A stretch of DNA of 64,000 bases, from contig NZ_CP012073.1 in the NCBI RefSeq assembly GCF_001262075.1, positions 1,426,001 through 1,490,000 of the forward strand, written 5' to 3'. The notes under the pieces are model-generated. The model was not told where the DNA came from. It saw only the letters and a program-made list of their open reading frames with translations, and did no database searches. Positions 3,223-14,060 of this stretch are shown here, piece by piece (position 1 is the stretch's first letter; every line of letters starts with the position of its first letter). Both the position numbers and the translations under genes were made by a program. Source of the DNA: Ottowia sp. oral taxon 894 (lineage in GTDB: Bacteria; Pseudomonadota; Gammaproteobacteria; Burkholderiales; Burkholderiaceae_C).

Positions 3223-5673
3223 TCAGTGCCGGGTTGCGTCCGCGCGCGCGCCACGCACTCGCTTTTTGGCAGCGGCCGCCACGGCGGCGGCGGAAGGCAG
3301 CGGCGGGGCGGCAGCGGCCTGCGCGTCGGGCAGCGGCGCGGGCAGGCGCTCCAGGGCGGTTTCGAGCACCTGGTCGATCCAGCGGACGGGGATGATTTCC
3401 AGGCCGTTTTTCACGTTTTCCGGAATTTCCTGCAAATCCTTCACGTTTTCTTCGGGGATGAGCACCTTGCGGATGCCGCCGCGCAGCGCGGCCAGCAGCT
3501 TTTCCTTCAGGCCGCCGATGGCGGTGACTTCGCCGCGCAGGGTGATTTCGCCCGTCATGGCCACGTCGGCGCGCACGGCAATGCCGGTCAGCGCCGAGAC
3601 GAAGGCCGTGGTCATGGCCGCGCCGGCGCTGGGGCCGTCCTTGGGCGTGGCGCCGTCGGGCACGTGCAGGTGGATGTCCAGCTTTTCGAAGGCGTCGTCG
3701 GCAATGCCCAGGCGGCGCGCGCGGGCGCGCACGACGGTGCGGGCGGCTTCGACGGACTCTTTCATCACATCGCCCAGCATGCCGGTGCGCAGGATGTTGC
3801 CTTTGCCGGGCATGGCGGCGGCTTCAATGGTGAGCAAGTCGCCGCCCACTTCCGTCCAGGCCAGGCCCACGACCTGGCCGATCTGGTTGTTCTGTTCGGC
3901 GCGGCCATAGGTGAACTTGCGCACGCCCAGAAAGTCGCCCAGGTTTTTGGCGGTGACTTTCACTTTCGGCTTCAGCTGCACCAGTTGCAGGCCCTTGACG
4001 ACTTTGCGGCAGATGCGCGAGATTTCGCGCTCCAGCGAGCGCACGCCCGCTTCGCGCGTGTAGTAGCGCACGATGTCGCGCACGGCGTCTTCGGAAACGC
4101 TCAGCTCCGCCTCTTTGACGCCGTTGGTCTTCATCTGCTTGGGCAGCAGGTAGCGCATGGCGATGCTGGTTTTTTCGTCTTCGGTGTAGCCCGACAGGCG
4201 AATGACTTCCATGCGGTCCAGCAGCGCGGGCGGAATGTTCATGGAGTTGCTGGTGGCCACGAACATCACGTCTGACAAATCGAAGTCCACTTCCACATAG
4301 TGGTCGCTGAAGGCGTGGTTTTGCTCGGGGTCCAGCACTTCGAGCAGGGCGCTGGCCGGGTCGCCCCGGAAGTCCATGCCCATTTTGTCGATTTCATCCA
4401 GCAAAAACAGCGGGTTGCGCGTGCCGGCCTTGTTCAGGCTTTGCAGCACTTTGCCGGGCATGGCGCCGATGTAGGTGCGGCGGTGGCCCCGGATTTCGGC
4501 TTCGTCGCGCATGCCGCCCAGCGCCATGCGCACGTATTTGCGGCCCGTGGCGCGCGCGATGGACTGGCCCAGCGAGGTTTTGCCCACGCCGGGCGGCCCC
4601 ACCAGACAGAGGATGGGGGCCTTGACTTTGTCCACGCGCTGCTGCACGGCCAGGTGCTCCAGGATGCGTTCCTTGACTTTTTCCAGCCCGAAGTGGTCGG
4701 CGTTGAGCACTTCTTCGGCGTGGGCCAGGTCATGTTTGATGCGCGTTTTTTTCGACCAGGGCAGGCCCGCCAGCACGTCCACGTAGTTGCGCACCACGCT
4801 GGCTTCGGCGGACATGGGCGACATCAGGCGCAGCTTTTTCAGCTCGTTTTCCGCCTTTTTCAGCGCCTCTTTGGGCATGCGGGCGGCCTTGATGCGCTTT
4901 TCGATTTCTTCAATGTCCGCACCGTCTTCGCCTTCGCCCAGCTCTTTTTGAATGGCCTTGACCTGCTCGTTCAGGTAGAAGTCGCGCTGGTTTTTCTCCA
5001 TCTGGCGCTTGACGCGGCCGCGAATGCGCTTGTCCACGTTGAGGATGTCCACCTCGCGCTGGATTTCTTCCAGCAGCGCCTGCAAGCGTTTTTGCACGTC
5101 GGCCACTTCCAGCATCTTCTGCTTGACGGGCAGCTGCAGCGGCATGTGCGCGGCGATGGTGTCGGCCAGGCGCTCGGCTTCGGCAATGCCGGAGATGGAA
5201 TTGAGGATGTCGGGCTGAATCTTCTTGAGCTTGGCGTATTGCTCGAACTGCTGCGTGACGGCGCGGCGCAGCGCCTCGGCCTCGGTGGGGTTGGCGGGCG
5301 CGGCCGCTTCCGGCGGCATGGGCAATACGGTGGCCTTGAAAAACTCGCCGTCTTCCACGCGCTCCAGCGCCGCGCGCTGCTGGCCCTGCACCAGCACTTT
5401 CACCGTGCCGTCGGGCAGCTTGAGCATTTGCAGCACAGTGCAAATGCAGCCGGTGGCGTACAGGTCGGTCATGGCCGGCTCATCCTTGCCGGAAGTGCGC
5501 TGCGCCACCAGGGCGATGCGGCGCTCTCCGCCCACGGCCGCTTCCAGCGCCTTGATGCTCTTGGGCCGCCCCACGAACAGCGGGATGACCATGTGCGGAA
5601 ACACCACCACATCGCGCAGGGGCATCAGCGGCATGTCCACCGGTTGGGGAGGCAGCAGGGTCAGTGTGGTCAT
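3223..5673 (-). CDS. lon: ATP-dependent protease Lon
   Basis: Lon is the cytosolic AAA+ serine protease that degrades misfolded and regulatory proteins. The 816-residue protein shows the N-terminal LON substrate-binding domain, a coiled region rich in Lys and Glu, Walker A GPPGVGKTS, Walker B FLLDEIDKMG, and a C-terminal protease domain with the catalytic Ser in PKDGPSAGAAM and the Lys in GGLKEKLLAA. The tail has an Ala-rich extension ending in RGARADATRH. Its usual neighbours clpP and clpX are not beside it; a clpX gene is found at ~57.9 kb in this window. The start ATG at 5673 fits the family N-terminus. Confidence 0.97.
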   Translation of the reverse strand: MTTLTLLPPQPVDMPLMPLRDVVVFPHMVIPLFVGRPKSIKALEAAVGGERRIALVAQRTSGKDEPAMTDLYATGCICTVLQMLKLPDGTVKVLVQGQQRAALERVEDGEFFKATVLPMPPEAAAPANPTEAEALRRAVTQQFEQYAKLKKIQPDILNSISGIAEAERLADTIAAHMPLQLPVKQKMLEVADVQKRLQALLEEIQREVDILNVDKRIRGRVKRQMEKNQRDFYLNEQVKAIQKELGEGEDGADIEEIEKRIKAARMPKEALKKAENELKKLRLMSPMSAEASVVRNYVDVLAGLPWSKKTRIKHDLAHAEEVLNADHFGLEKVKERILEHLAVQQRVDKVKAPILCLVGPPGVGKTSLGQSIARATGRKYVRMALGGMRDEAEIRGHRRTYIGAMPGKVLQSLNKAGTRNPLFLLDEIDKMGMDFRGDPASALLEVLDPEQNHAFSDHYVEVDFDLSDVMFVATSNSMNIPPALLDRMEVIRLSGYTEDEKTSIAMRYLLPKQMKTNGVKEAELSVSEDAVRDIVRYYTREAGVRSLEREISRICRKVVKGLQLVQLKPKVKVTAKNLGDFLGVRKFTYGRAEQNNQIGQVVGLAWTEVGGDLLTIEAAAMPGKGNILRTGMLGDVMKESVEAARTVVRARARRLGIADDAFEKLDIHLHVPDGATPKDGPSAGAAMTTAFVSALTGIAVRADVAMTGEITLRGEVTAIGGLKEKLLAALRGGIRKVLIPEENVKDLQEIPENVKNGLEIIPVRWIDQVLETALERLPAPLPDAQAAAAPPLPSAAAVAAAAKKRVRGARADATRH

Positions 5674-5815
5674 GAAGCAGGGAATCCTTGTTCAAAAGAG
5701 GTGTCTGGAATTGGCGGCGCGCCAGGCAATTTCAAGACGCCGCCCAGCCCGCGCCGCGCCAGGGCGCCGCCACCAAAATGTAGCGCAGCAATGCATCTGG
5801 CGGGCCAGAATTTTT

Positions 5816-5892
5816 CGCTACTTTATCAATAGCATGATGTCCTAGTGCAGAAAGCGCAGAGCGTGTTTTTGGCAGGCCTGAATTTGCTCCTG
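5816..5892 (+). repeat. R1 intergenic repeat, copy b
   Basis: Contains TATCAATAGCATGATG, then TCCTAGTGCAGAAAGCGCAG, and ends GAATTTGCTCCTG. It lies upstream of lon and downstream of purU. Confidence 0.8.
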
Positions 5893-6156
5893 TTAAAGGA
5901 GCCATTCTGGTGTTTCGGAAGTCCCTGGCGGTTTTCCCAAATGGCGCACCGTGCACGCTTGCTTCCAAATCCAGCCCGAGCTCAATGCGCAAGGCGTCGG
6001 CCTGCTGGAGCAGGCCTTAAAAAAATCAGCTCGGCGCGCGGCACCTCAAACGCGCTCTTGGTCATTCATGCGCAGGGCGTGAAGAATGCGAACACCCAAG
6101 GCTTGCCGCACGACTTTTGAACAGGTTTTAAACGAAGCGGGCTGCTGCGCAGGTCG
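5893..6156. other. Noncoding stretch, possible gene remnant
   Basis: No convincing gene. A short plus-strand frame near 5945-6000 reads FQIQPELNAQGVGLLEQ, which looks like protein but has no start, no family match I recognise and no continuation, so it may be a relic. The stretch ends with a TGAACAGGTTTT half-end resembling the right end of R3. Confidence 0.25.
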
Positions 6157-7014
6157 TCAGCGGAAGACCACGGTTTTGTGCCCGTTGAGCAGCACGCGCC
6201 GCTCGGCGTGCCACTTCACGGCACGGGCCAGCACCTGGCTTTCGGTGTCGCGGCCCACGGCGGTCAGCGACTCCACGGTGTGCGTGTGGTCGGCGCGGGC
6301 CACATCCTGCTCGATGATGGGGCCTTCATCCAGATCGGCGGTGACGTAGTGCGCCGTGGCGCCGATGAGTTTCACGCCCCGCTCGTGCGCCTGGTAGTAG
6401 GGCCGCGCGCCCTTGAAGCTGGGCAAAAAGCTGTGGTGAATGTTGATGGCGCGCCCGGCCAGCTTGCGGCACAGGTCGTCAGAGAGCACTTGCATGTAGC
6501 GCGCCAGCACCACCAGCTCCGCCGATTCGGCCTGGATGATTTCGTACTGCCTGGCCTCGGCCTGCGCCTTGGTTTCGCGGGTGACGGGGATGTGATGGAA
6601 AGGCACGTTGTAGCTGGCCGCCAGCTGATAGAAATCGCGGTGGTTGCTGACGATGGCGCGAATGTCCAGCGGCAGCAGCCCGCTTTTCCAGCGAAACAGC
6701 AAATCGTTGAGGCAATGCCCCTCGCGGCTGACAAAGATGGCGCAGCGCATGGGCTGCGCCGCGTCGTGCAGCTGCCAGCGCATGTCGAACTGCGCCGCCA
6801 GCGCGTCCAGCGCCGCACGCATGGCTTGGCTTTTGGCTTCGGGGTTTTCGTCCGTCACCACAAACTGCACACGCATGAAAAACAGGCCCGTGGCCTGATC
6901 GTTGAACTGCGCCGCTTCTTCGATGTTGCCGCCGTTTTCCAGCAAAAAGCCGGAGACGGCATGCACGATGCCCATGCGGTCCGGGCAGGAGAGGGTCAAA
7001 ACGTAAGTGGTCAT
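6157..7014 (-). CDS. purU: Formyltetrahydrofolate deformylase PurU
   Basis: PurU hydrolyses 10-formyl-THF to formate and THF, balancing one-carbon pools and supplying formate for purine synthesis. The 285-residue product has an N-terminal ACT domain (TYVLTLSCPDRMGIVHAVSGF) and a formyltransferase-like hydrolase domain with HHSFLPSFKGARPYYQA and the catalytic Asp region TADLDEGPIIEQD. The ATG at 7014 matches the family start; an in-frame ATG 15 bp upstream (7029), preceded by AGGTG, is a possible alternative. R1 copy c lies upstream. Confidence 0.95.
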   Translation of the reverse strand: MTTYVLTLSCPDRMGIVHAVSGFLLENGGNIEEAAQFNDQATGLFFMRVQFVVTDENPEAKSQAMRAALDALAAQFDMRWQLHDAAQPMRCAIFVSREGHCLNDLLFRWKSGLLPLDIRAIVSNHRDFYQLAASYNVPFHHIPVTRETKAQAEARQYEIIQAESAELVVLARYMQVLSDDLCRKLAGRAINIHHSFLPSFKGARPYYQAHERGVKLIGATAHYVTADLDEGPIIEQDVARADHTHTVESLTAVGRDTESQVLARAVKWHAERRVLLNGHKTVVFR

Positions 7015-7303: not shown

Positions 7304-8974
7304 TCAGGGTTTGACGCCGCTGGCCATGCCTTGCCTGATTTGCTCCCAGCTCAGGCCAAAGCGCAGCAGGTATTTGCGCAGGCGGTCGGAGTCATTGACG
7401 GCCTTGCGCTGCTGGCGCGATTGGGCAAAAAGCCGCCGCCCCGCTTCAGACAGGCTCGCGCTTTGAGCGCAAACGGGCAGCACGGCGGCCAGTTGCAGGC
7501 GGTCAAAGAGGTCGAGCGCGGCGGCTTTTTCAGGCCCCAGCAGGCGGGCGGGCCAGTCGGCGGCCGCTGGCGCGCTTTCGGGGGCGCTTTCCGGGCCGCT
7601 TTCGGAGCCGCTTTCCGGCTCCTGCCGCGCCCAGAGCCAGCGCAGGCGGGCGGTTTCGGCTTCTACTTGCGCTTGCGTGATGCGGCCGCCTTCGGCCAGG
7701 GTGGCCAGGCGGGTGATGCTGGAGGACAGGTCGCGGAAGTTGCCGCGCCAGGCGGCTTCTTCGCTTTGGGCAAAGCGCAAAAAGGCGCTGCGCGCTTCGG
7801 GGTGAAAGCGCGCCATGCGGCCTTGCTCGCTGGCGTGCAGGGCCAGCAGGTGGTCGATGTTGGGTTCGATGTCTTCGGGCCGCGCGGCCAGGCCCGGCAG
7901 GTCGTAAGTCCAGAGGTTGATGCGCGAAAAAAGGTCTTCGCGAAAGCGCCCGGCGGCCACTTCGCGCCGCAGGTCGCGGCAGGTGCCGGCAATGAGCTGG
8001 AAGTTGCTGCCCACTTCGCGGTCGCTGCCCAGCGGGTAGAAGCGCTTTTCCTCGATGGCTTTGAGCAGCATGGCTTGCTCGTCCGGCCCCAGCTCGCCGA
8101 TTTCGTCCAGAAACAGCACGCCGCCATCGGCGCTTTTGAGCAGGCCGGCGCGGTCGCTGGCCGCGCCGGTGAAGGCGCCTTTTTTGTGGCCGAACAGGGC
8201 GGACATGGCCCCGTCGCCGTGCAGCGTGGCGCAATTGACTTCCACGAACTGGCCGCTGATGAGCTTGCGCTCGCGCTTGAGCTGGGCCATGCGCCGCGCC
8301 AGAAAGGATTTGCCCGCGCCCGTGGGGCCGGTCAGCAAGATGGGCGCGGCAGAGCGCACGGCCACGCGCTCGATTTCGTCGATCAGCGCGTTAAAGCGCG
8401 CGTTGCGCGTGGCGATGCCGCTTTTGAGAAAGGCCACGGCGTCGCGCTGCGCGGCCTCAAAGCGCCGGGCGATGGCGTCGTAGCGCGAAAGGTCCAGGTC
8501 AATGAGCGAGAGCTGGCCCGGCTCGCCCGTGCCCCAGCGGCGCGGCGGCGAGGTTTGCGCCAGCACGCCGGGCAGGTGGCGCGATTCGGCCAGCAGGAAC
8601 AAACAGATTTGCGCCACGTGCGTGCCGGTGGTGATGTGCACCCAGTACTGCCACTCGTCCGGTGCCCAGGCGTAGCCGTGCGCCCAGTCATAGAGCGCGC
8701 TGTAGACCTGGCCAAAGTCCCAGGGGTCGGCAATGGGCAGCAGGGTCAGGCGCACGTCGGTGGCGGGCGAAAAGGAGGCGATGTCGCCCTGCACGCATTC
8801 GGCCAGCCGGCGGTGGCGCTCGCCGGTGTAAATCAGCTCCAGCCGCGCCACGGGCTGGCCGGGCTGCTGGCACAGCGCCACGGAGGGCCGCCACTTTTGC
8901 CAGCGGCCCGCGCCCATGCCGCTGTCGAGCTGCGTGCCGAGAAAGCCAATGGCCGTGACCGGTTTGATATTCAT
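7304..8974 (-). CDS. rtcR: Sigma54-dependent transcriptional activator RtcR
   Basis: RtcR activates the RNA-repair operon in response to RNA damage. The 556-residue protein has an N-terminal RtcR/CARF-type sensor domain (about residues 1-180, starting IGFLGTQLD), a sigma54 AAA+ domain with Walker A GPTGAGKS, the sigma54-contact loop GAFTGA, Walker B FLDEIGELG, and a C-terminal DNA-binding region around LSEAGRRLF. A Ser/Glu/Pro-rich insert (ESGSESGPESAPESAP) separates the AAA+ domain from the C-terminus. It is divergent from the tRNA-like/slipin/rtcB transcription unit and its cognate -24/-12 promoter lies between them. Confidence 0.95.
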   Translation of the reverse strand: MNIKPVTAIGFLGTQLDSGMGAGRWQKWRPSVALCQQPGQPVARLELIYTGERHRRLAECVQGDIASFSPATDVRLTLLPIADPWDFGQVYSALYDWAHGYAWAPDEWQYWVHITTGTHVAQICLFLLAESRHLPGVLAQTSPPRRWGTGEPGQLSLIDLDLSRYDAIARRFEAAQRDAVAFLKSGIATRNARFNALIDEIERVAVRSAAPILLTGPTGAGKSFLARRMAQLKRERKLISGQFVEVNCATLHGDGAMSALFGHKKGAFTGAASDRAGLLKSADGGVLFLDEIGELGPDEQAMLLKAIEEKRFYPLGSDREVGSNFQLIAGTCRDLRREVAAGRFREDLFSRINLWTYDLPGLAARPEDIEPNIDHLLALHASEQGRMARFHPEARSAFLRFAQSEEAAWRGNFRDLSSSITRLATLAEGGRITQAQVEAETARLRWLWARQEPESGSESGPESAPESAPAAADWPARLLGPEKAAALDLFDRLQLAAVLPVCAQSASLSEAGRRLFAQSRQQRKAVNDSDRLRKYLLRFGLSWEQIRQGMASGVKP

Positions 8975-9112: not shown

Positions 9113-9128
9113 TGGCATGCCGCCTGCA
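9113..9128 (+). promoter_or_regulatory. Sigma54 (-24/-12) promoter of the rtc unit
   Basis: The sequence TGGCATGCCGCCTGCA has the invariant GG and GC dinucleotides with the 10-bp internal spacing of sigma54 promoters. It lies ~140 bp upstream of the rtcR start on the divergent strand, where an RtcR-activated promoter is expected, and ~155 bp before the first tRNA-like element. Confidence 0.75.
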
Positions 9129-9168
9129 CTGAAGAAAGCACCTGAATGGCTGCCGCCAGCTTGCAGGA

Positions 9169-9205
9169 GCCGCATCGGGCCACAAGCCCTGCGGCCCGGT
9201 GCGGC
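9169..9205 (+). other. Strong hairpin in the rtc leader
   Basis: GCCGCATCGGGCC (9169-9181) and GGCCCGGTGCGGC (9193-9205) form a 13-bp stem with one G-U pair and an 11-nt loop. It lies inside the predicted transcript between the sigma54 promoter and the tRNA-like pair. No U-run follows, so it is not a simple terminator. Confidence 0.65.
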
Positions 9206-9282
9206 GCCCGGTTCGCGAAGCGCCTTGCAGCGCAAAGCGGCCTGTAGGCGCGCCGTATGCCGCTGGTGATGGTGTTCGGGTT

Positions 9283-9357
9283 TTGCTGGTAGCTCAGTAT
9301 GGATAGAGCGCACTTTTTTCTAAGGTGAAGTCGCAGGTTCAAGTCCTGCCAGGCAAA
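9283..9357 (+). tRNA. tRNA-like element 1 (anticodon position UUC)
   Basis: It folds as a full cloverleaf: acceptor TTGCTGG/CAGGCAA (one mismatch, one G-U), D stem GCTC/GAGC, anticodon stem CACTT/AGGTG with 7-nt loop TTTTCTA (UUC at positions 34-36), 5-nt variable loop, and T arm GCAGG-TTCAAGT-CCTGC. Position 37 is U rather than a purine, no CCA is encoded, and the acceptor has a mismatch, so this may not be a translating tRNA. It lies inside the RtcR-controlled unit and ends directly against tRNA-like element 2. The fold is read directly; a role as a substrate, sensor or decoy of the RNA-repair system is inference. Confidence 0.7.
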
Positions 9358-9438
9358 TTGTTTGTGGCTCATTCGGTAGAGCAATGCACTGTGAATGCAT
9401 CGGTATATCCGTAGCGGGTTCGAGTCCCGCCAAACAAA
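9358..9438 (+). tRNA. tRNA-like element 2 (anticodon position GUG, long variable arm)
   Basis: It has a perfect 7-bp acceptor TTGTTTG/CAAACAA, D stem GCTC/GAGC, anticodon stem ATGCA/TGCAT with loop CTGTGAA (GUG, histidine), and T arm GCGGG-TTCGAGT-CCCGC. The variable region CGGTATATCCGTA forms its own CGG/CCG hairpin, unlike normal tRNA-His. There is no G before position 1, which histidyl-tRNA synthetase would need, and no encoded CCA. It follows element 1 with no spacer. The element is best called tRNA-like; its place in an rtcB unit suggests it is linked to RNA cleavage and repair. Confidence 0.75.
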
Positions 9439-9815
9439 ACCGCATTTCGCAAGGAATGCCCAAGTACCGGGGCCGCAAGGCCCCTCCCGCCGAGTGCGGC
9501 GCGGCCTCAAGGCCACGGCTGGCGTCAAGCCTGCCCGGCCTGCCAGCCGCGCCGCCCCTGTCCCGGCGGCCCCGCGCCAGCGCGCGCACCGGGGCCGCAG
9601 CGGGCGGCCAGCGGCGGGCCGCGCCAGAGAAAAGGCCGCCTTGGCAGGGCCTTGGCCTCAAAGCAGGCTCTCTGGGCGCCGCCCGCATCGCACGCCGCCC
9701 GTCTGCGCCCGGCTCACGCGCCGGCCCGCTGCCGGGGCAGGGTTCGGCAACCCTTTTTTGAAACAAACCGGTTCGGCGTGAATGACTTGCGCGAATCGCC
9801 ATAGGAGAAAAAAAC
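9439..9815 (+). other. GC-rich transcribed spacer before slipin
   Basis: This ~375-bp stretch is rich in short inverted repeats such as GGGGCCGCAAGGCCCC and has no codon-like structure; the open frames across it look like GC-driven artefacts. It probably forms the structured 5' leader of the slipin-rtcB message. The only clear signal is the AGGAG just before the slipin ATG. Confidence 0.4.
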
Positions 9816-10958
9816 ATGAAAACCTGGGGCTTCAAAACCATACGGGTCAAGAAAAACGAACGCGCCATGCTCCTGCGCAATGGCGACTTTGACCGCATGC
9901 TCATGCCAGGCAAGCACCGCATCACGGCCTGGGGCGACGAGCTGCGCGCCCAAGCCTTCAATCTGGAAGAAAGCGCCTTCACGCACTCTTTGAGCGACTA
10001 CCTGATGGCGCGCGAGCCGCAAGTGGTGGACGAGCACTTTGTGCGCGTGCAAACGGGCGAGGACGAAGTGGCCCTGCTCATTGAAGACGGCGTGCTGACC
10101 GCCATCATCCCGCCCGCCACGCGGCGTCTGTACTGGAAGGGCCTGCACGAAGTGCAAGCGCAAGTGCTGCCCGTGCCGCCCGATTTGCGCGTGCCCGCCG
10201 ACTTGCTGGCCCGCATACGCGCCGCCCGCGCTGCGGGCATGAACCGCTACGCGCCGCTCATGGCCGAAGTGCCGCAGTTTCACACCGGCTTGCTGTGGGT
10301 GGACGGGCAAATCCGCGAAACCCTGCCGCCCGGCGTGCATGGCTGGTGGCAACACGGGCACGCCGTGCGCGTGGACGTGGTGGACTTGCGCGCGCAAACC
10401 GCCGAAGTTGCCGGGCAAGACATCCTCACCCGCGACAAAGTCACGCTGCGCCTGAACCTCACCGCCGTCTGGCGCTACACCGACGCGCAAACCGCCTTCG
10501 GCCAGCATCCCAAGCCTGCCGATCACGTGTACCGCGAACTGCAATTTGCCTTGCGCGCCGCCGTCGGCCAGCGCACGCTGGACGCCCTGCTGGAAGACAA
10601 GGCCGCCATTGACGCCACCGTGCTCGCCCAGGTGCAGCCGCGCCTGGCTGGCAGCGGCATCGCGCTGGAGAGCGTGGGCGTGAAAGACATCATCTTGCCG
10701 GGCGACATGCGGACCATCCTTGCCCAGGTGGTGGAAGCCGAAAAGGCCGCCCAGGCCAACGTCATCCGCCGCCGCGAGGAAACCGCCGCCACCCGCTCGC
10801 TGCTCAACACCGCCAAGGTCATGGAAGGCAACCCCGTCGCCCTGCGCATGAAAGAGCTGGAAACGCTGGAGCGCGTGGCCGAACGCATCGACAAGATTTC
10901 CGTCGTCGGCGGGCTGGACCAGGTGCTCAGCGGGCTGGTCAAGCTCCGGCAGGACTGA
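9816..10958 (+). CDS. Slipin / SPFH-domain protein of the RNA-repair operon
   Basis: A 380-residue stomatin-like protein. It starts MKTWGFKTIRVKKNERAML and carries an SPFH/Band-7 core around DILTRDKVTLRLNLTAVWRY and GIALESVGVKDIILPGDMR, followed by a C-terminal helical region (VVEAEKAAQANVIRRREETA) typical of slipins. No N-terminal membrane segment is visible, so it is either cytosolic or peripherally attached. Slipins next to rtcB and rtcR are known in other bacteria, but their role in RNA repair is unclear. A good ribosome-binding site (AGGAG) precedes the ATG. It is the first protein gene after the tRNA-like pair. Confidence 0.85.
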   Translation: MKTWGFKTIRVKKNERAMLLRNGDFDRMLMPGKHRITAWGDELRAQAFNLEESAFTHSLSDYLMAREPQVVDEHFVRVQTGEDEVALLIEDGVLTAIIPPATRRLYWKGLHEVQAQVLPVPPDLRVPADLLARIRAARAAGMNRYAPLMAEVPQFHTGLLWVDGQIRETLPPGVHGWWQHGHAVRVDVVDLRAQTAEVAGQDILTRDKVTLRLNLTAVWRYTDAQTAFGQHPKPADHVYRELQFALRAAVGQRTLDALLEDKAAIDATVLAQVQPRLAGSGIALESVGVKDIILPGDMRTILAQVVEAEKAAQANVIRRREETAATRSLLNTAKVMEGNPVALRMKELETLERVAERIDKISVVGGLDQVLSGLVKLRQD

Positions 10959-11087: not shown

Positions 11088-11576
11088 ATGAAAAACACCC
11101 CAAGCCGCAAGCAACTGCGCACCGAACAAAAGGCCGCGCGCAAGCAGCCCTGCGCGCAAAGGCTGCCAGCGGACGTCAGCCGCCTGGTCCCCGGCAACAG
11201 CTACGGCGCGGCTTGCAAGCAGTTTTATGAACCCGTTCCCTTCCGCTGCATGGACTGCGGCAAGGAAGAAATATGGACAGCCCGCCAGCAAAAGTGGTGG
11301 TACGAAGACTGCCAGGGCAGCATCTACAGCACCGCCACGCGCTGCCTGCCCTGCCGCATCGCCCGCCGCCAAAAGCTGGCCGAACAGCGCCAGCGCACGC
11401 AAGACGGCCTGGCCCGCAAAGCCGCCCGCACCTTTGACGTGCAAGCCTTCAAACAGGAAAAACAGCGCCGCGCCCAATTGCGGCGGCAGTGGCGCGCGCA
11501 GCAAAAGGCGCGACAAAAGGCGCTGGAAATTCCGGCTTCGGATGCACGCAGCTCACTGGCGGATCCGGCCAGTTGA
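11088..11576 (+). CDS. Zinc-ribbon protein of the RNA-repair operon
   Basis: A 162-residue basic protein. The centre has a zinc-ribbon module with CMDC and CLPC knuckles around KEEIWTARQQKWWYEDCQG, as in the probable zinc-ribbon (zf-trcl-like) family. The C-terminal third is a charged helix rich in Arg, Gln and Lys (KQEKQRRAQLRRQWRAQQKA), suggesting nucleic-acid binding. The ATG at 11088 is chosen because residues before it in the longer frame look non-coding. It lies 129 bp after slipin and 15 bp before rtcB, so it is co-transcribed. Its function is unknown; an RNA-binding accessory role is inferred. Confidence 0.75.
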   Translation: MKNTPSRKQLRTEQKAARKQPCAQRLPADVSRLVPGNSYGAACKQFYEPVPFRCMDCGKEEIWTARQQKWWYEDCQGSIYSTATRCLPCRIARRQKLAEQRQRTQDGLARKAARTFDVQAFKQEKQRRAQLRRQWRAQQKARQKALEIPASDARSSLADPAS

Positions 11577-11591
11577 TTAAAGGAATCAAAA

Positions 11592-12959
11592 ATGACAACG
11601 ACTGAAACCATGCCAAACGCCGCCGCGCCCGAAGAAGCGGCGCAAAAGCGGCTGGAGCGCCGCCTGGAGGCCGCGCGGGCCAGAAATGAAAAAGCCGCTG
11701 AAGAAATGCCGCCCGAAATCATTGAGGTGAATAACGAAAACGGGCATTACCTGCAAATGCAAATCGGCGGCGCTGCGCCCATCAAAATGTGGACCCGGGG
11801 CGTGCCGGTAGAAGAAGACGCGCGCCAGCAATTAAAAAATATCGCCAGCCTGCCCGTGGTATTCAAACACGTGGCGGTGATGCCGGATGTGCATCTGGGC
11901 ATCGGCGCCACGATTGGCACGGTGATTCCAACCATCAAAGCCATTATTCCGGCAGCGGTGGGCGTGGATATTGGCTGCGGCATGATGGCCTGCAAAACCA
12001 CGCTGACGGCCAGCGATTTGCCCGACGATCTGGGGCCGCTGCGCAGCGCCATTGAAAAAGCGGTGCCGCACGGCATGACGCCCAAGAAATATGGCCGCGA
12101 CAAAGGCGGCTGGGAAACGCCGCCCGCTGAAACAGACGCGGCCTGGACCCGTTTGGCCGATGAATTCAGGCAATTGTGCGAATTACACCCGCGCCTGGAA
12201 AAGACGAATAATTACAAACACCTGGGCACGCTGGGCACGGGCAACCATTTCATTGAAATTTGCCTGGATGAAAATCAGGCCGTGTGGATCATGCTGCATT
12301 CCGGCTCGCGCGGCGTGGGCAATGCCATCGGCACGCATTTCATTGAATTGGCGAAACAAGATGCGCGATTGCACCAGCAAAATCTGCCGGATGAAAACCT
12401 GGCCTATTTTGAAGAAGGCGCGCGGTATTTCGGTGAATATGTGAAAGCCGTGGACTGGGCGCAGAAATTCGCCGCCGCCAACCGCGAAGTGATGATGACG
12501 CGCGTGATTAACGCTATGCGAAAAGTCATTGCCAAGCCATTTGAAACGCATGTGGAAGCGGTGAATTGCCACCATAACTACGTGCAGCGCGAAACGCATT
12601 TTGGCCAGGCGGTTTTTGTCACGCGCAAGGGCGCGGTCAGCGCCGAAAAGGGGCGGCTGGGCATCATTCCCGGCAGCATGGGCGCCAAAAGCTACATCGT
12701 GCGCGGCAAGGGGCACCCCGACAGCTTCAACAGTTGCAGCCACGGCGCAGGCCGCACCATGAGCCGCACCCAGGCGAAAAAACTGTTCACGGAGGCCGAC
12801 CAAATCAGGGCGACCGAAGGCGTGGAATGCCGCAAGGACGCAGGCGTGATTGACGAAATTCCAATGGCCTACAAGGACATAGACGCCGTAATGGCCGCCC
12901 AGGCCGATTTGGTGGACGTGCTGCACACGCTCAAGCAGGTGGTGTGCGTGAAGGGGTGA
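11592..12959 (+). CDS. rtcB: RNA-splicing ligase RtcB
   Basis: RtcB joins RNA 2',3'-cyclic phosphate (or 3'-phosphate) ends to 5'-OH ends using GTP and Mn2+. The 455-residue protein contains MPDVHLGIGATIG, the metal-binding VGVDIGCGMM, the NCHHNYV metal/substrate motif and SCSHGAGRTMSR, which carries the histidine guanylylated during catalysis. It has an N-terminal extension of ~45 charged residues (KRLERRLEAARARNEK) before the core. It closes the sigma54/RtcR-controlled unit. The cyclase gene rtcA is absent here, so ligation would rely on ends that are already cyclic or 3'-phosphate. Confidence 0.96.
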   Translation: MTTTETMPNAAAPEEAAQKRLERRLEAARARNEKAAEEMPPEIIEVNNENGHYLQMQIGGAAPIKMWTRGVPVEEDARQQLKNIASLPVVFKHVAVMPDVHLGIGATIGTVIPTIKAIIPAAVGVDIGCGMMACKTTLTASDLPDDLGPLRSAIEKAVPHGMTPKKYGRDKGGWETPPAETDAAWTRLADEFRQLCELHPRLEKTNNYKHLGTLGTGNHFIEICLDENQAVWIMLHSGSRGVGNAIGTHFIELAKQDARLHQQNLPDENLAYFEEGARYFGEYVKAVDWAQKFAAANREVMMTRVINAMRKVIAKPFETHVEAVNCHHNYVQRETHFGQAVFVTRKGAVSAEKGRLGIIPGSMGAKSYIVRGKGHPDSFNSCSHGAGRTMSRTQAKKLFTEADQIRATEGVECRKDAGVIDEIPMAYKDIDAVMAAQADLVDVLHTLKQVVCVKG

Positions 12960-13009
12960 AGCAGAGCAAAACGCCTTCGGCCAAGCCGGGACTGATGCAA
13001 CACATGAAT

Positions 13010-13096
13010 ATTGCTCCTTTATTCATAGCATGATGTCTTAGTGGGAAAAGCGCAGGATGGTTTTTTGAAATCATTGAATTTGCTCCTCTTTTTTAA
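13010..13096 (+). repeat. R1 intergenic repeat, copy d
   Basis: TTGCTCCTTTATTCATAGC, then ATGATGTCTTAGTG (core with one change) and GAATTTGCTCCTCTTTTTT. It lies after rtcB. Confidence 0.8.
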
Positions 13097-13221
13097 GACT
13101 GCCGTTGGGCAAGGCGGCTCGGAGTTCACCTCATTTAGCCAATGCGCCGCTTGCACATCAAAAAGGCCGGGGCGCGCCTGATGGCGCGCCCCGGCCTGAG
13201 CAAAGGAGCAGAAACGGGCGT

Positions 13222-13569
13222 TTATTTCGGCCCAAGGGCGCCTGAAGCCGCGCCCTTGGCGGCGTTCGAAGCGGCGTCCTTGGTTGCCTGCCGGCCGTCC
13301 TGTCCTGTCACCGCAGGCATTTGCGCCTGTTCGGCTGCCGTGGCAGCGGGCTGAGTGGCGGAGTGAGTGGCAGATTGGGCGGCTGAAGGCTGCGCCGTGG
13401 TTTTGGCGGCCTCATGCGCCTGTGGTCCTGCAACGGCTGAAGGCGTAGGCGCATTGGCCTGCTGATCCACGGGCTTGATGCCCGTGCCGGCGGCATGGGC
13501 CATGCCCCAGCTCATTGCCGTGGTCAGCAGCACAACGGCAGAAGAAGCGTAGATGGAACGTTTGGTCAT
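13222..13569 (-). CDS. Small secreted Ala/Thr/Gln-rich protein
   Basis: A 115-residue protein starting MTKRSIYASSAVVLLTT, with a clear Sec signal peptide cleaved near AHAAG. The mature part is low-complexity: Ala, Gln, Thr, Ser and Pro with short repeats (AAQSATHSATQPAAT). AAAGG lies ~10 nt before the ATG, supporting this start over the longer upstream frame. No family is recognised and no Cys is present, so it may be an unstructured periplasmic or surface protein. It is convergent with rtcB and divergent from infA. Confidence 0.55.
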   Translation of the reverse strand: MTKRSIYASSAVVLLTTAMSWGMAHAAGTGIKPVDQQANAPTPSAVAGPQAHEAAKTTAQPSAAQSATHSATQPAATAAEQAQMPAVTGQDGRQATKDAASNAAKGAASGALGPK

Positions 13570-13796
13570 GGAAGAACCTTTCATCGAGTTGAAGGGGAGT
13601 TGCAGTGTGTCCGCCATCGCCGTTACACACCACCTCTGGCCTGTTGGGCTTGTGTCAGGGTGCAAGCTGGCCCGCGCCGCGCGCTGCCGCCTTCCGGCAG
13701 CAGGGGCTTCCACTAAAATGGCCGGTTGCTTTACCACACATATTCGGCCCCGGACTGCCTGGCCGCCGGGCGCCGCCGAAGGAGAAATTCACCCTC

Positions 13797-14060
13797 ATGG
13801 CAAAAGAAGAACTGATCGAGATGCAAGGCGTCGTCAATGAAGTGCTGCCTGACTCGCGCTACCGCGTCACCCTCGACAACGGCCACCAGCTCGTTGCCTA
13901 CTCGGCAGGCAAGATGAAGAAGAACCACATCCGCATCCTGGCGGGCGACCGCGTCACGCTGGAGCTTTCGCCGTATGACTTGAGCAAGGGCCGCATCAGC
14001 TTCCGCCACCTCAACCGTGCGCCCGGCAGCGCCACGCCGCCCGCTCGCAGCGCGCGCTGA
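13797..14060 (+). CDS. infA: Translation initiation factor IF-1
   Basis: IF-1 occupies the 30S A site during initiation. The 87-residue protein is a single OB-fold ([20 protein letters not shown], then [30 protein letters not shown]) plus a C-terminal tail of ~15 residues that the ~72-residue E. coli form lacks. Such extended infA copies are common in betaproteobacteria. AAGGAG precedes the ATG by ~12 nt. It sits apart from the ribosomal-protein operons, as expected for the stand-alone copy. Confidence 0.92.

Follow-up and report, generated by a model that had tools for sequence, protein, structure and literature searches.

A conserved, tRNA-like leader RNA predicted upstream of slipin genes in bacterial RNA-repair loci

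The 64-kb stretch of the genome of Ottowia sp. oral taxon 894 analyzed here (contig NZ_CP012073.1; hereafter the window, with coordinates counted from its first letter) contains an RNA-repair locus in which rtcR is divergent from the consecutive genes for a slipin, a treble-clef zinc protein and the RNA ligase RtcB, and in which two tRNA-like elements, TLS1 and TLS2, are located between the promoter and the slipin gene. Sequence comparison indicates that TLS1 and TLS2 very probably form the tRNA-like portion of a structured leader RNA that is conserved, is about 600 nt long and begins with a 5' domain of about 140 nt, and the associations described below suggest that it is slipin, and not rtcB or rtcR, with which this RNA is associated. 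The best overall explanation, to which we assign a probability of about 0.5, is that the RNA is a tRNA mimic which, as a leader or as a non-coding RNA, works with the slipin in the repair of tRNA damage.

Both elements of the window are detected with standard tools. ARAGORN calls tRNA-Glu (UUC) at 9282-9358 and tRNA-His (GUG) at 9358-9438, with no further call in the window (calls made at the 80% threshold, at which the program over-calls, were not used), and the Rfam tRNA model RF00005 (gathering threshold 29 bits) yields 48.6 bits at 9283-9357 and 61.0 bits at 9358-9438, with a spacer of zero. The RF00005 scores are those of cloverleaves with the conserved D- and T-loop signatures, and the acceptor stems comprise 6/7 pairs in TLS1 and 7/7 pairs in TLS2. 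The arrangement described in the first-pass annotation, namely two spacerless cloverleaves between a sigma54 promoter and slipin-rtcB, is confirmed, and its readings of the details, that is the missing CCA, the U at position 37 of TLS1, the missing G-1 of TLS2 and the variable arm of TLS2 that can form a hairpin (CGGUAUAUCCG), are all correct. Its view of non-standard tRNA-like RNAs that lie, by position, downstream of an RtcR/sigma54-type promoter is likewise supported. The distance between the two T-arms, 81 nt, falls within the 55-95 nt which, followed by slipin, was used to define a tandem pair, and the leader RNA of the window is one of the more tRNA-like versions.

The good cloverleaf scores and the normal anticodon loop of TLS2 are what would be expected of two ordinary tRNAs (Glu and His) that are induced by RtcR and feed translation after tRNA damage; real-looking tRNA arrays, with 8 tRNA-His and 7 tRNA-Glu in 13 loci, also stand beside leader, slipin and rtcB elsewhere. 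This explanation is nevertheless highly improbable. Genomic CCA is present in neither element but in 36 of 37 own tRNAs (the comparison set, from 44 other tRNAs in the genome); position 37 is U in TLS1 and A in TLS2 but a purine in 37/37 own tRNAs, an argument weakened by the presence of U37 in 5 of 78 array tRNAs of relatives; and TLS2 has A at both -1 and 73, where the genome's own tRNA-His has G-1 and C73. Separate genes for tRNA-Glu (UUC) and tRNA-His (GUG) are present elsewhere in the genome. The nearest relatives of TLS1 and TLS2 are the tRNA-like elements of other slipin leaders, with other anticodons or none (identity 0.73 and 0.72, respectively), compared with 0.70 and 0.64 for the best own tRNA, a margin that is small for TLS1; identity to array tRNA-Glu and tRNA-His is poor (0.47-0.63), and many homologues lack an anticodon loop. 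Ordinary tRNA-Glu/His identity was rejected on these grounds. As judged from the relatives, the Glu and His anticodons of the window are not conserved. The same identity values do not support a derivation of the window pair from array tRNA-Glu/His, an idea raised by the frequency of these two tRNAs in the arrays, and the two tRNA-like calls stand alone in the 64 kb, so that no tRNA array (trn operon) is present in the window.

The 5' domain, at 9140-9282, was overlooked in the first-pass annotation. It is made up of a closing helix (P1), a GGGGUU-type hairpin and a GGUGC...GCAUGCCGC hairpin. A covariance model of this domain alone, R1, built from 11 relatives with the window left out, matches the window at 9140-9282 (35 bits, with a rough E-value of 4e-4 in 694 kb) and ends one base before TLS1; because this match directly abuts TLS1, the 5' domain is considered to be part of the same RNA. 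R1 matched 51 of 69 sources at E<=0.05, including six of its own training loci. A second model, R2, was built from 44 sequences that include the window and exclude an antisense match in locus L048 (loci and genomes are denoted here by L and G numbers). It scores the window, a member of its training set, at 47.7 bits (E 2.6e-7), reaches further slipin leaders outside the training set, some of them close kin of it, with up to 77 bits, and finds nothing below E 0.1 in 72 non-slipin RtcR loci, the best match there (E=0.2) lying away from the leader. Applied to the 18 sources missed by R1, R2 recovers 11 at E<0.02, with L233 at 0.076 and L247 at 1.3 and no match in L148, L235, L236 and L237; L203 and L209 were searched with R1 only.

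The predicted fold of the domain is accompanied by extensive covariation. Double changes occur in 32 of the 35 pairs of the 44-sequence alignment (covariation score 0.487 vs 0.159 in shuffled alignments), and paired cells amount to 91%, compared with 33-46% when the partners are slid, in an alignment that was itself fitted to the model. The 14 aligned rtcR-slipin gaps, window included, share a common order of sigma54 promoter, 5' domain, tRNA-like elements, hairpins and slipin, and each of them has a GG-N10-GC motif 165-205 bases into the gap. RNAalifold, run on 11 relatives, gives 71 pairs, 31 of which are changed on both sides. Rfam has no match at E<=1 over 9140-9282, and the L048 leader, searched to E 5, returns tRNA, a weak YrlA and otherwise chance-level matches, such as asX1 over its 5' domain (19.4 of 70 bits, E 1.7); assignment of the 5' domain to a known Rfam leader or ribozyme was rejected, as no match rises above chance.

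Of the 299 genomes from the same family, 42 have an RtcR that scores above the cut-off of NCBIfam, and the 41 loci other than that of the window were compared. Slipin adjoins rtcR in 13 of these, and in 11 of the 13 the gap between rtcR and slipin contains tRNA-like Rfam matches in the direction of the operon (Rfam was run on 40 of the 41 loci; L069, which has no slipin, was left out); the remaining two, L038 and L072, have one T-arm each. Among 95 RtcR loci of a wider set, a T-arm motif is found within 900 nt of rtcR, in the divergent direction, in 23/23 slipin-type loci vs 5/72 others (Fisher p ~1.5e-17, with the loci taken as independent despite kinship, with flanks of at most 1.5 kb, so that a more distant slipin would count as non-slipin, and with nine listed RtcR genes outside the count). 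In three of the five non-slipin loci (L093, L131 and L132) the T-arm precedes the D-arm, as in YrlA, L125 is unexplained, and in the fifth, L143, rtcB is preceded by a complete tRNA-Pro(UGG)-like gene. The L131 and L132 leaders, from small genomes of the same order, contain several T-arm motifs in this T-before-D arrangement of Y RNAs. The L143 gene, from another class of the same phylum, is located 237-314 from rtcR in the divergent direction, ends in CCA and is not a slipin leader.

In 298 genomes, 24 of 25 hits of the 5' domain fall at slipin loci; the single hit elsewhere (G227, L269), with neither slipin nor a T-arm pair, is probably a remnant, and this search missed one slipin locus, L072 of G079. 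A scan with a slipin profile, using one genome per species, found relatives (best 80 of at least 537) in Variovorax, Acidovorax, Burkholderia, Paraburkholderia, Pseudomonas (P. aeruginosa PA7 included), a Thiobacillus assembly, Providencia and others. After deduplication, 103 distinct slipin leaders contain at least one T-arm in 100 cases and a tandem pair in 78; a slipin relative from viral contigs, with the leader cut at 171 nt, and L191 (48 nt) were excluded from these counts. The conservation beside rtcB in other Burkholderiales that the first-pass annotation envisaged is found there and beyond, so that the lack of conservation which it had named as a refutation did not occur, with the qualification that the partner, by association, is slipin. 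Because the RNA stays with slipin when the promoter, rtcR or the adjacent rtcB change, slipin may be either the partner of the RNA or its target in cis.

Among distinct leaders, 71 of the 72 from rtcR-type loci have a sigma54-like motif vs 1 of 31 from rtcR-less loci; since the RNA persists although the type of promoter depends on the context, it is more than an appendage of the promoter. Within the available flank, none of the 57 named rtcR-type loci has further operon-strand tRNAs upstream of the leader. Among the rtcR-less loci, the leader is preceded by tRNA genes in 13 of the 23 named ones; flanks are short in several of the remaining ten (flanks of rtcR-less loci can be as short as in L194, 791 nt, and L197, 787 nt). 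The same holds for 11 of the 12 family loci, two of them already represented among the named loci, and the number of tRNAs reaches 17. Arrays situated directly upstream of leader-slipin-rtcB, with no rtcR, were seen in L259-L270, L176, L202, L207 and L223, and two genomes of the window's own genus (L268, L270) have this form. The commonest array tRNAs in the named loci are His, Glu, Asp and Arg, and CCA ends 69 of the 78 array tRNAs in the 12 family loci. A Pfam search of 10 proteins from four array loci revealed no common regulator of the array form. In L176, an HNH-like reading frame at ~3690-3980 (CAYCGD...CEHIVPASRGG, recognized by eye) separates the tRNA array from the leader; HNH genes beside tRNA arrays are also described, in the available portions of the sources, for Anabaena and M. 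avium (PMC10272220; PMC12803027).

A third context involves RlaP. In E. coli IAI39 (L271, slipin-RlaP genes at 4563-6487, with rtcR not adjacent either) and in a Citrobacter plasmid (L272, 3995-5913), the order is leader-slipin-RlaP and rtcB is not adjacent; these two leaders have weak 5'-domain matches (20.6 and 25.7 bits, respectively) and a lone T-arm. The Providencia slipin gene (L235) is matched at 60-80% identity in 1621 of 5426 E. coli genomes, the eight listed matches covering 61% of the gene. RlaP also appears in longer operons, in the order slipin, treble clef, rtcB, RlaP, rtcA in L156 and slipin, rtcB, rtcA, RlaP in L148. In L042 (2259-9212), a single operon comprises a tRNA-like leader with slipin and then Ro60 with YrlA, rtcB, RlaP and rtcA; because this locus carries both RNAs, the slipin leader RNA and YrlA are distinct parts. 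In L057 (6352-9820), genes for a metallo-beta-lactamase-fold protein and an ADP-ribosylglycohydrolase are inserted between slipin and rtcB, and L033, a locus with YrlA and no slipin match, has a 22-tRNA array (11254-13880) ~9 kb from rtcR. The persistence of the RNA in loci without adjacent rtcR makes one role proposed in the first-pass annotation, that of a ligand source for the CARF sensor, unlikely as the main one.

The tRNA-like part of the leader is variable. Two elements are present in the window and none to three elsewhere; three tandem elements, two of them above the Rfam threshold, occur in L148, from another order of the class. The loop of the TLS2 anticodon arm, as parsed in 75 leaders, measures 7 nt in 28, 4 nt in 26, 5 nt in 12, 9 nt in 5, 6 nt in 2 and 3 nt in 2 (a tally of the best hairpin from a simple picker, with duplicates of the same contigs included), and the 26 four-nucleotide loops comprise 12 GCAA and 9 GAAA. 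TLS1 in relatives is often reduced to the acceptor stem, one or two small hairpins and the T-arm, with the D- and anticodon arms lost. The two strands of its acceptor covary, a perfect 7-bp partner being present in 26 of 78 leaders vs 60 of 1560 shuffles. The constant parts are the T-loop, the GG of the TLS2 D-loop and the 5' domain. As the anticodon arm is often a tetraloop while these parts stay, the decoding part of the RNA appears to be dispensable, and the variation argues against a role in translation.

The same variation bears on the suggestion in the first-pass annotation that the pair serves as a repair substrate or as a decoy for anticodon nucleases. As a general rule this is not supported, given the frequent tetraloops in the TLS2 anticodon arm and the existence of three Pseudomonas leaders without a T-arm. 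A tetraloop cannot be bait, which disfavors a general bait role and leaves room for an uncleavable competitor, that is, an RNA whose tRNA body soaks up tRNA-cleaving toxins or nucleases and so spares the tRNAs; a decoy is also raised for YrlA in the available part of PMC7790460. Tetraloop anticodon arms would resist cleavage, and the location of many rtcR-less forms behind tRNA arrays, which might supply replacements, suits a defence against tRNA cleavage. The competitor is nonetheless quite unlikely, considering that a transcript from a single locus would face abundant tRNAs, that leaders which have lost the tRNA body retain the 5' domain and that the anticodon arm varies.

The features of the locus are listed in Table 1. 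Transcription is expected to start at ~9139, downstream of TGGCATGCCGCCTGCA. The gene that the first-pass annotation labeled a zinc ribbon encodes a treble-clef protein (zf_Tbcl), which is close to that label. In relatives, a covarying hairpin (columns 290-301 of alignment A1) occupies the place of the hairpin that follows TLS2. RlaP has no match in the window's genome. Slipin, treble clef and rtcB match none of the defence-family models, and rtcR matches the three RtcR models of PADLOC and two weak ones.

Table 1. Features of the slipin-rtcB locus, in window coordinates (MFE, minimum free energy)
Feature	Position	Strand	Evidence and remarks
rtcR	7304..8974	-	sigma54-dependent activator with CARF domain; PF06956 243.6 bits; NF038308 773 bits (cut-off 650)
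Sigma54 (-24/-12) promoter TGGCATGCCGCCTGCA	9113..9128	+	GG-N10-GC
Conserved 5' domain of the predicted leader RNA	9140..9282	+	covariance models R1 and R2; covariation
tRNA-like element 1 (TLS1)	9283..9357	+	UUC in anticodon position; U37; no CCA; RF00005, ARAGORN
tRNA-like element 2 (TLS2)	9358..9438	+	GUG in anticodon position; long variable arm; no G-1; no CCA; RF00005, ARAGORN
Hairpin 3' of TLS2 (GCAUUUCGCAAGGAAUGC)	9442..9459	+	sequence and MFE fold
GNRA-capped hairpin GGGGCCGCAAGGCCCC	9469..9484	+	sequence and fold; counterpart in relatives GGUCGAAAGACC
CCCGCCGAGUGCGG element	9486..9499	+	MFE fold; counterpart CCCGCCGAACGCGGG kept in alignment A1
Terminator-like hairpin and T run, between RNA and slipin	9739..9754	+	weak
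Slipin/SPFH (Band_7) gene	9816..10958	+	PF01145
Treble-clef zinc protein gene (zf_Tbcl)	11091..11576	+	PF13451 45 bits
rtcB RNA ligase gene	11592..12959	+	PF01139 430 bits

Because the RNA is placed for co-induction with the repair genes, is tRNA-shaped and is indifferent to the anticodon, it may mimic tRNA for proteins that read the elbow or the acceptor; candidate readers are RNase P, the CCA enzyme, RtcB, RlaP and PNPase. A tentative mechanism, compatible with action in cis or in trans, can be outlined on this basis. Damage to tRNAs would lead RtcR, which responds to damaged tRNAs in Salmonella according to the available part of PMC7790460, to switch on the leader transcript; TLS1, which in many relatives amounts to an acceptor stem, a T-arm and NCCA, a minimal RNase P substrate, would mark a cut at the border between the 5' domain and TLS1 (9282/9283); and the tRNA elbow (D- and T-loops) of the RNA, released or still attached, would dock tRNA-handling proteins on a slipin assembly. 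The resulting repair particle would be a tRNA-mimic ribonucleoprotein (RNP) of the kind that Ro60 forms with Y RNA.

The exactness of the border in the window, where the 5' domain ends at 9282 and TLS1 starts at 9283, suggests a processing cut, and such cuts might also be the whole function, in which case the tRNA-like elements would be RNase P and RNase Z sites whose sole purpose is to detach the slipin mRNA from the RNA of the 5' domain. MALAT1 has a tRNA-like element that works as a cut site of this kind, and the TLS1 of relatives retains the acceptor, the T-arm and often CCA. CCA follows TLS2 in 13 of 78 leaders. Punctuation alone is still unlikely, because in 50 of 76 leaders TLS2, in which the elbow of D-loop and T-loop is kept, offers no more than 3-5 contiguous acceptor pairs and would be a poor RNase P substrate, two tandem copies exceed the need, and some leaders have none.

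Another possibility, which we regard as doubtful, is that of a cis-acting leader, in which the tRNA-like elements form a substrate-mimic operator that tunes slipin translation or read-through upon binding of RNase P or of a tRNA-binding operon product (RtcB, RtcA or RlaP). Threonyl-tRNA synthetase acts in this way on its own mRNA. The position fixed immediately upstream of slipin, with 24 of 25 5'-domain hits at slipin loci, agrees with such an operator, as does the conservation of sequence in close relatives, which extends up to near the slipin start; RtcAB is also reportedly needed for RtcR-dependent activation, according to the available part of PMC9650030. Against an operator speak the retention of the RNA under different promoters and without adjacent rtcB, its length of 600 nt, which is large for the purpose, and the lack of an above-chance terminator in the window; sequestration of the start site was judged by reading the alignment only.

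A number of observations weigh against the preferred explanation, in which a tRNA-mimic RNA works with slipin in tRNA-damage repair. The fixed position of the leader upstream of one gene fits cis-regulation of slipin equally well, and expression, processing and protein binding of the RNA are proposals from sequence. The tRNA-like part is dispensable in three Pseudomonas leaders (L214, L218 and L220), which lack a T-arm and keep the 5' domain; the Enterobacterales leaders examined have a lone T-arm only; and CCA follows TLS1 in only 39 of 78 leaders, that of the window not among them. Outside slipin loci, weak Rfam tRNA matches occur upstream of rtcB in three cases, two of which (L036, L065) overlap a YrlA match and one (L058) does not. 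The strongest off-target matches of R1, with 28.2 bits (the antisense one in L048) and 26.4 bits (within the rtcR gene of L054), are not much lower than the 35 bits of the window, and E-values are rough for R1 and R2 alike. In fold energy, the window RNA is only modestly better than shuffled sequences (z -2.33, and -1.63 for L048). The stretch searched contains two potential intrinsic terminators, compared with 1.6 in shuffles, i.e., the chance level, for which reason an intrinsic terminator was rejected as the 3' end of the RNA. Finally, removing this slipin from P. aeruginosa PA14 was without clear effect in the tests reported in the available part of PMC13086221.

The slipin itself is compatible with a soluble assembly. 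A clear membrane segment is absent, with 19-residue hydropathy below 1.6 in 36 of 37 slipin homologues, and the structural model (predicted local distance difference test score, pLDDT, 84) consists of N-terminal beta modules, an SPFH domain and a C-terminal helix of ~65 residues with a break. The whole model matches stomatin, HflK and prohibitin, and also major vault protein (MVP) (Z ~11-12), one MVP alignment spanning positions 8-336 of the model with a root-mean-square deviation of 6.0. The N-terminal part alone reaches Z ~5 with erlin, prohibitin and HflK and Z ~3 with MVP, and Foldseek returned nothing below E 0.001, so the vault likeness suggested by the model is only an idea. Going further, it is conceivable, if rather improbable, that a soluble slipin cage or ring holds the tRNA-mimic RNA for tRNA repair and represents a new class of RNP, which by analogy would be a bacterial counterpart in kind, at similarly long odds, to the Ro60-Y RNA or vault-vault RNA particles. 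Joined to this speculation is the notion that the tRNA-like module of Y RNAs, corresponding to the 3' half of TLS1 and the 5' half of TLS2, arose from a tandem pair.

If the proposed role is correct, RNA-repair operons gain, beside the Y RNAs, a second tRNA-mimic RNA, of which no description was found in the open-access literature searched. Its range includes Variovorax, Acidovorax, Burkholderia, Pseudomonas and, in part, Escherichia coli, and it joins three separately studied subjects, namely RtcB repair, SPFH proteins and redundant tRNA arrays, so that the role of slipin in rtc operons becomes testable through the RNA. It also calls for caution in annotation, because programs that predict tRNAs report its elements as tRNA-Glu, -His, -Arg, -Ile, -Thr, etc. 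In P. aeruginosa PAO1, the annotated tRNA-Arg (PA4581.1) presumably occupies the place of the slipin leader. The P. aeruginosa slipin gene is mentioned in PMC13086221 and in PMC8619066, the terms tRNA and tRNA-Arg, respectively, being absent from the two papers.

The nearest known RNA is YrlA, also a tRNA-mimic RNA in an RtcR-controlled RNA-repair operon, whose order of T-arm, acceptor-like stem and D-arm is that from the T-arm of TLS1 to the D-arm of TLS2, a resemblance with which the full cloverleaves compete. The YrlA model (positions 28-81 of 114) matches the window at 9330-9382 with 34.1 bits (E 2e-4), compared with a gathering threshold of 69 bits, and the L048 leader with 21.1 bits. The protein partner also differs, Ro60 there and slipin here: the window operon consists of slipin, zf_Tbcl and RtcB and includes no Ro60 (the search for Ro60 covered this operon). 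Membership in YrlA was rejected on the sub-threshold score and the missing Ro60, and a close link is disfavored because in L207 the tRNA-like pair, like the ordinary tandem tRNAs of that locus, has no YrlA match at E<=1. The RtcR-controlled rtcBA operon of Salmonella and E. coli resembles the window locus in regulator, promoter class and RNA ligase (PMC7790460; PMC9650030); the term slipin is absent from both papers, and their available parts describe no tandem tRNA-like leader. The mycobacterial tRNA array units, in which redundant tRNA clusters are combined with an HNH gene and which are regarded, in the available part of PMC12803027, as a putative anti-defence system, are reminiscent of the array form, but that paper contains none of the terms SPFH, slipin and RNA ligase. 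Among known physiologies, the closest is that of the TrcR regulon of Anabaena, in which, according to the available part of PMC10272220, a trn array of 26 tRNAs, rtcB (all3526), slipin (alr0740) and an HNH nuclease are brought together, and tRNAs, RtcB and slipin are co-induced under translational stress; rtcB and RtcR are mentioned in this paper, and the term 'tRNA-like' is absent. The Anabaena genes are dispersed and under a repressor (PMC10272220), whereas the window has RtcR/sigma54 control and no array, and in the rtcR-less loci tRNA array, leader RNA, slipin and rtcB are physically joined.
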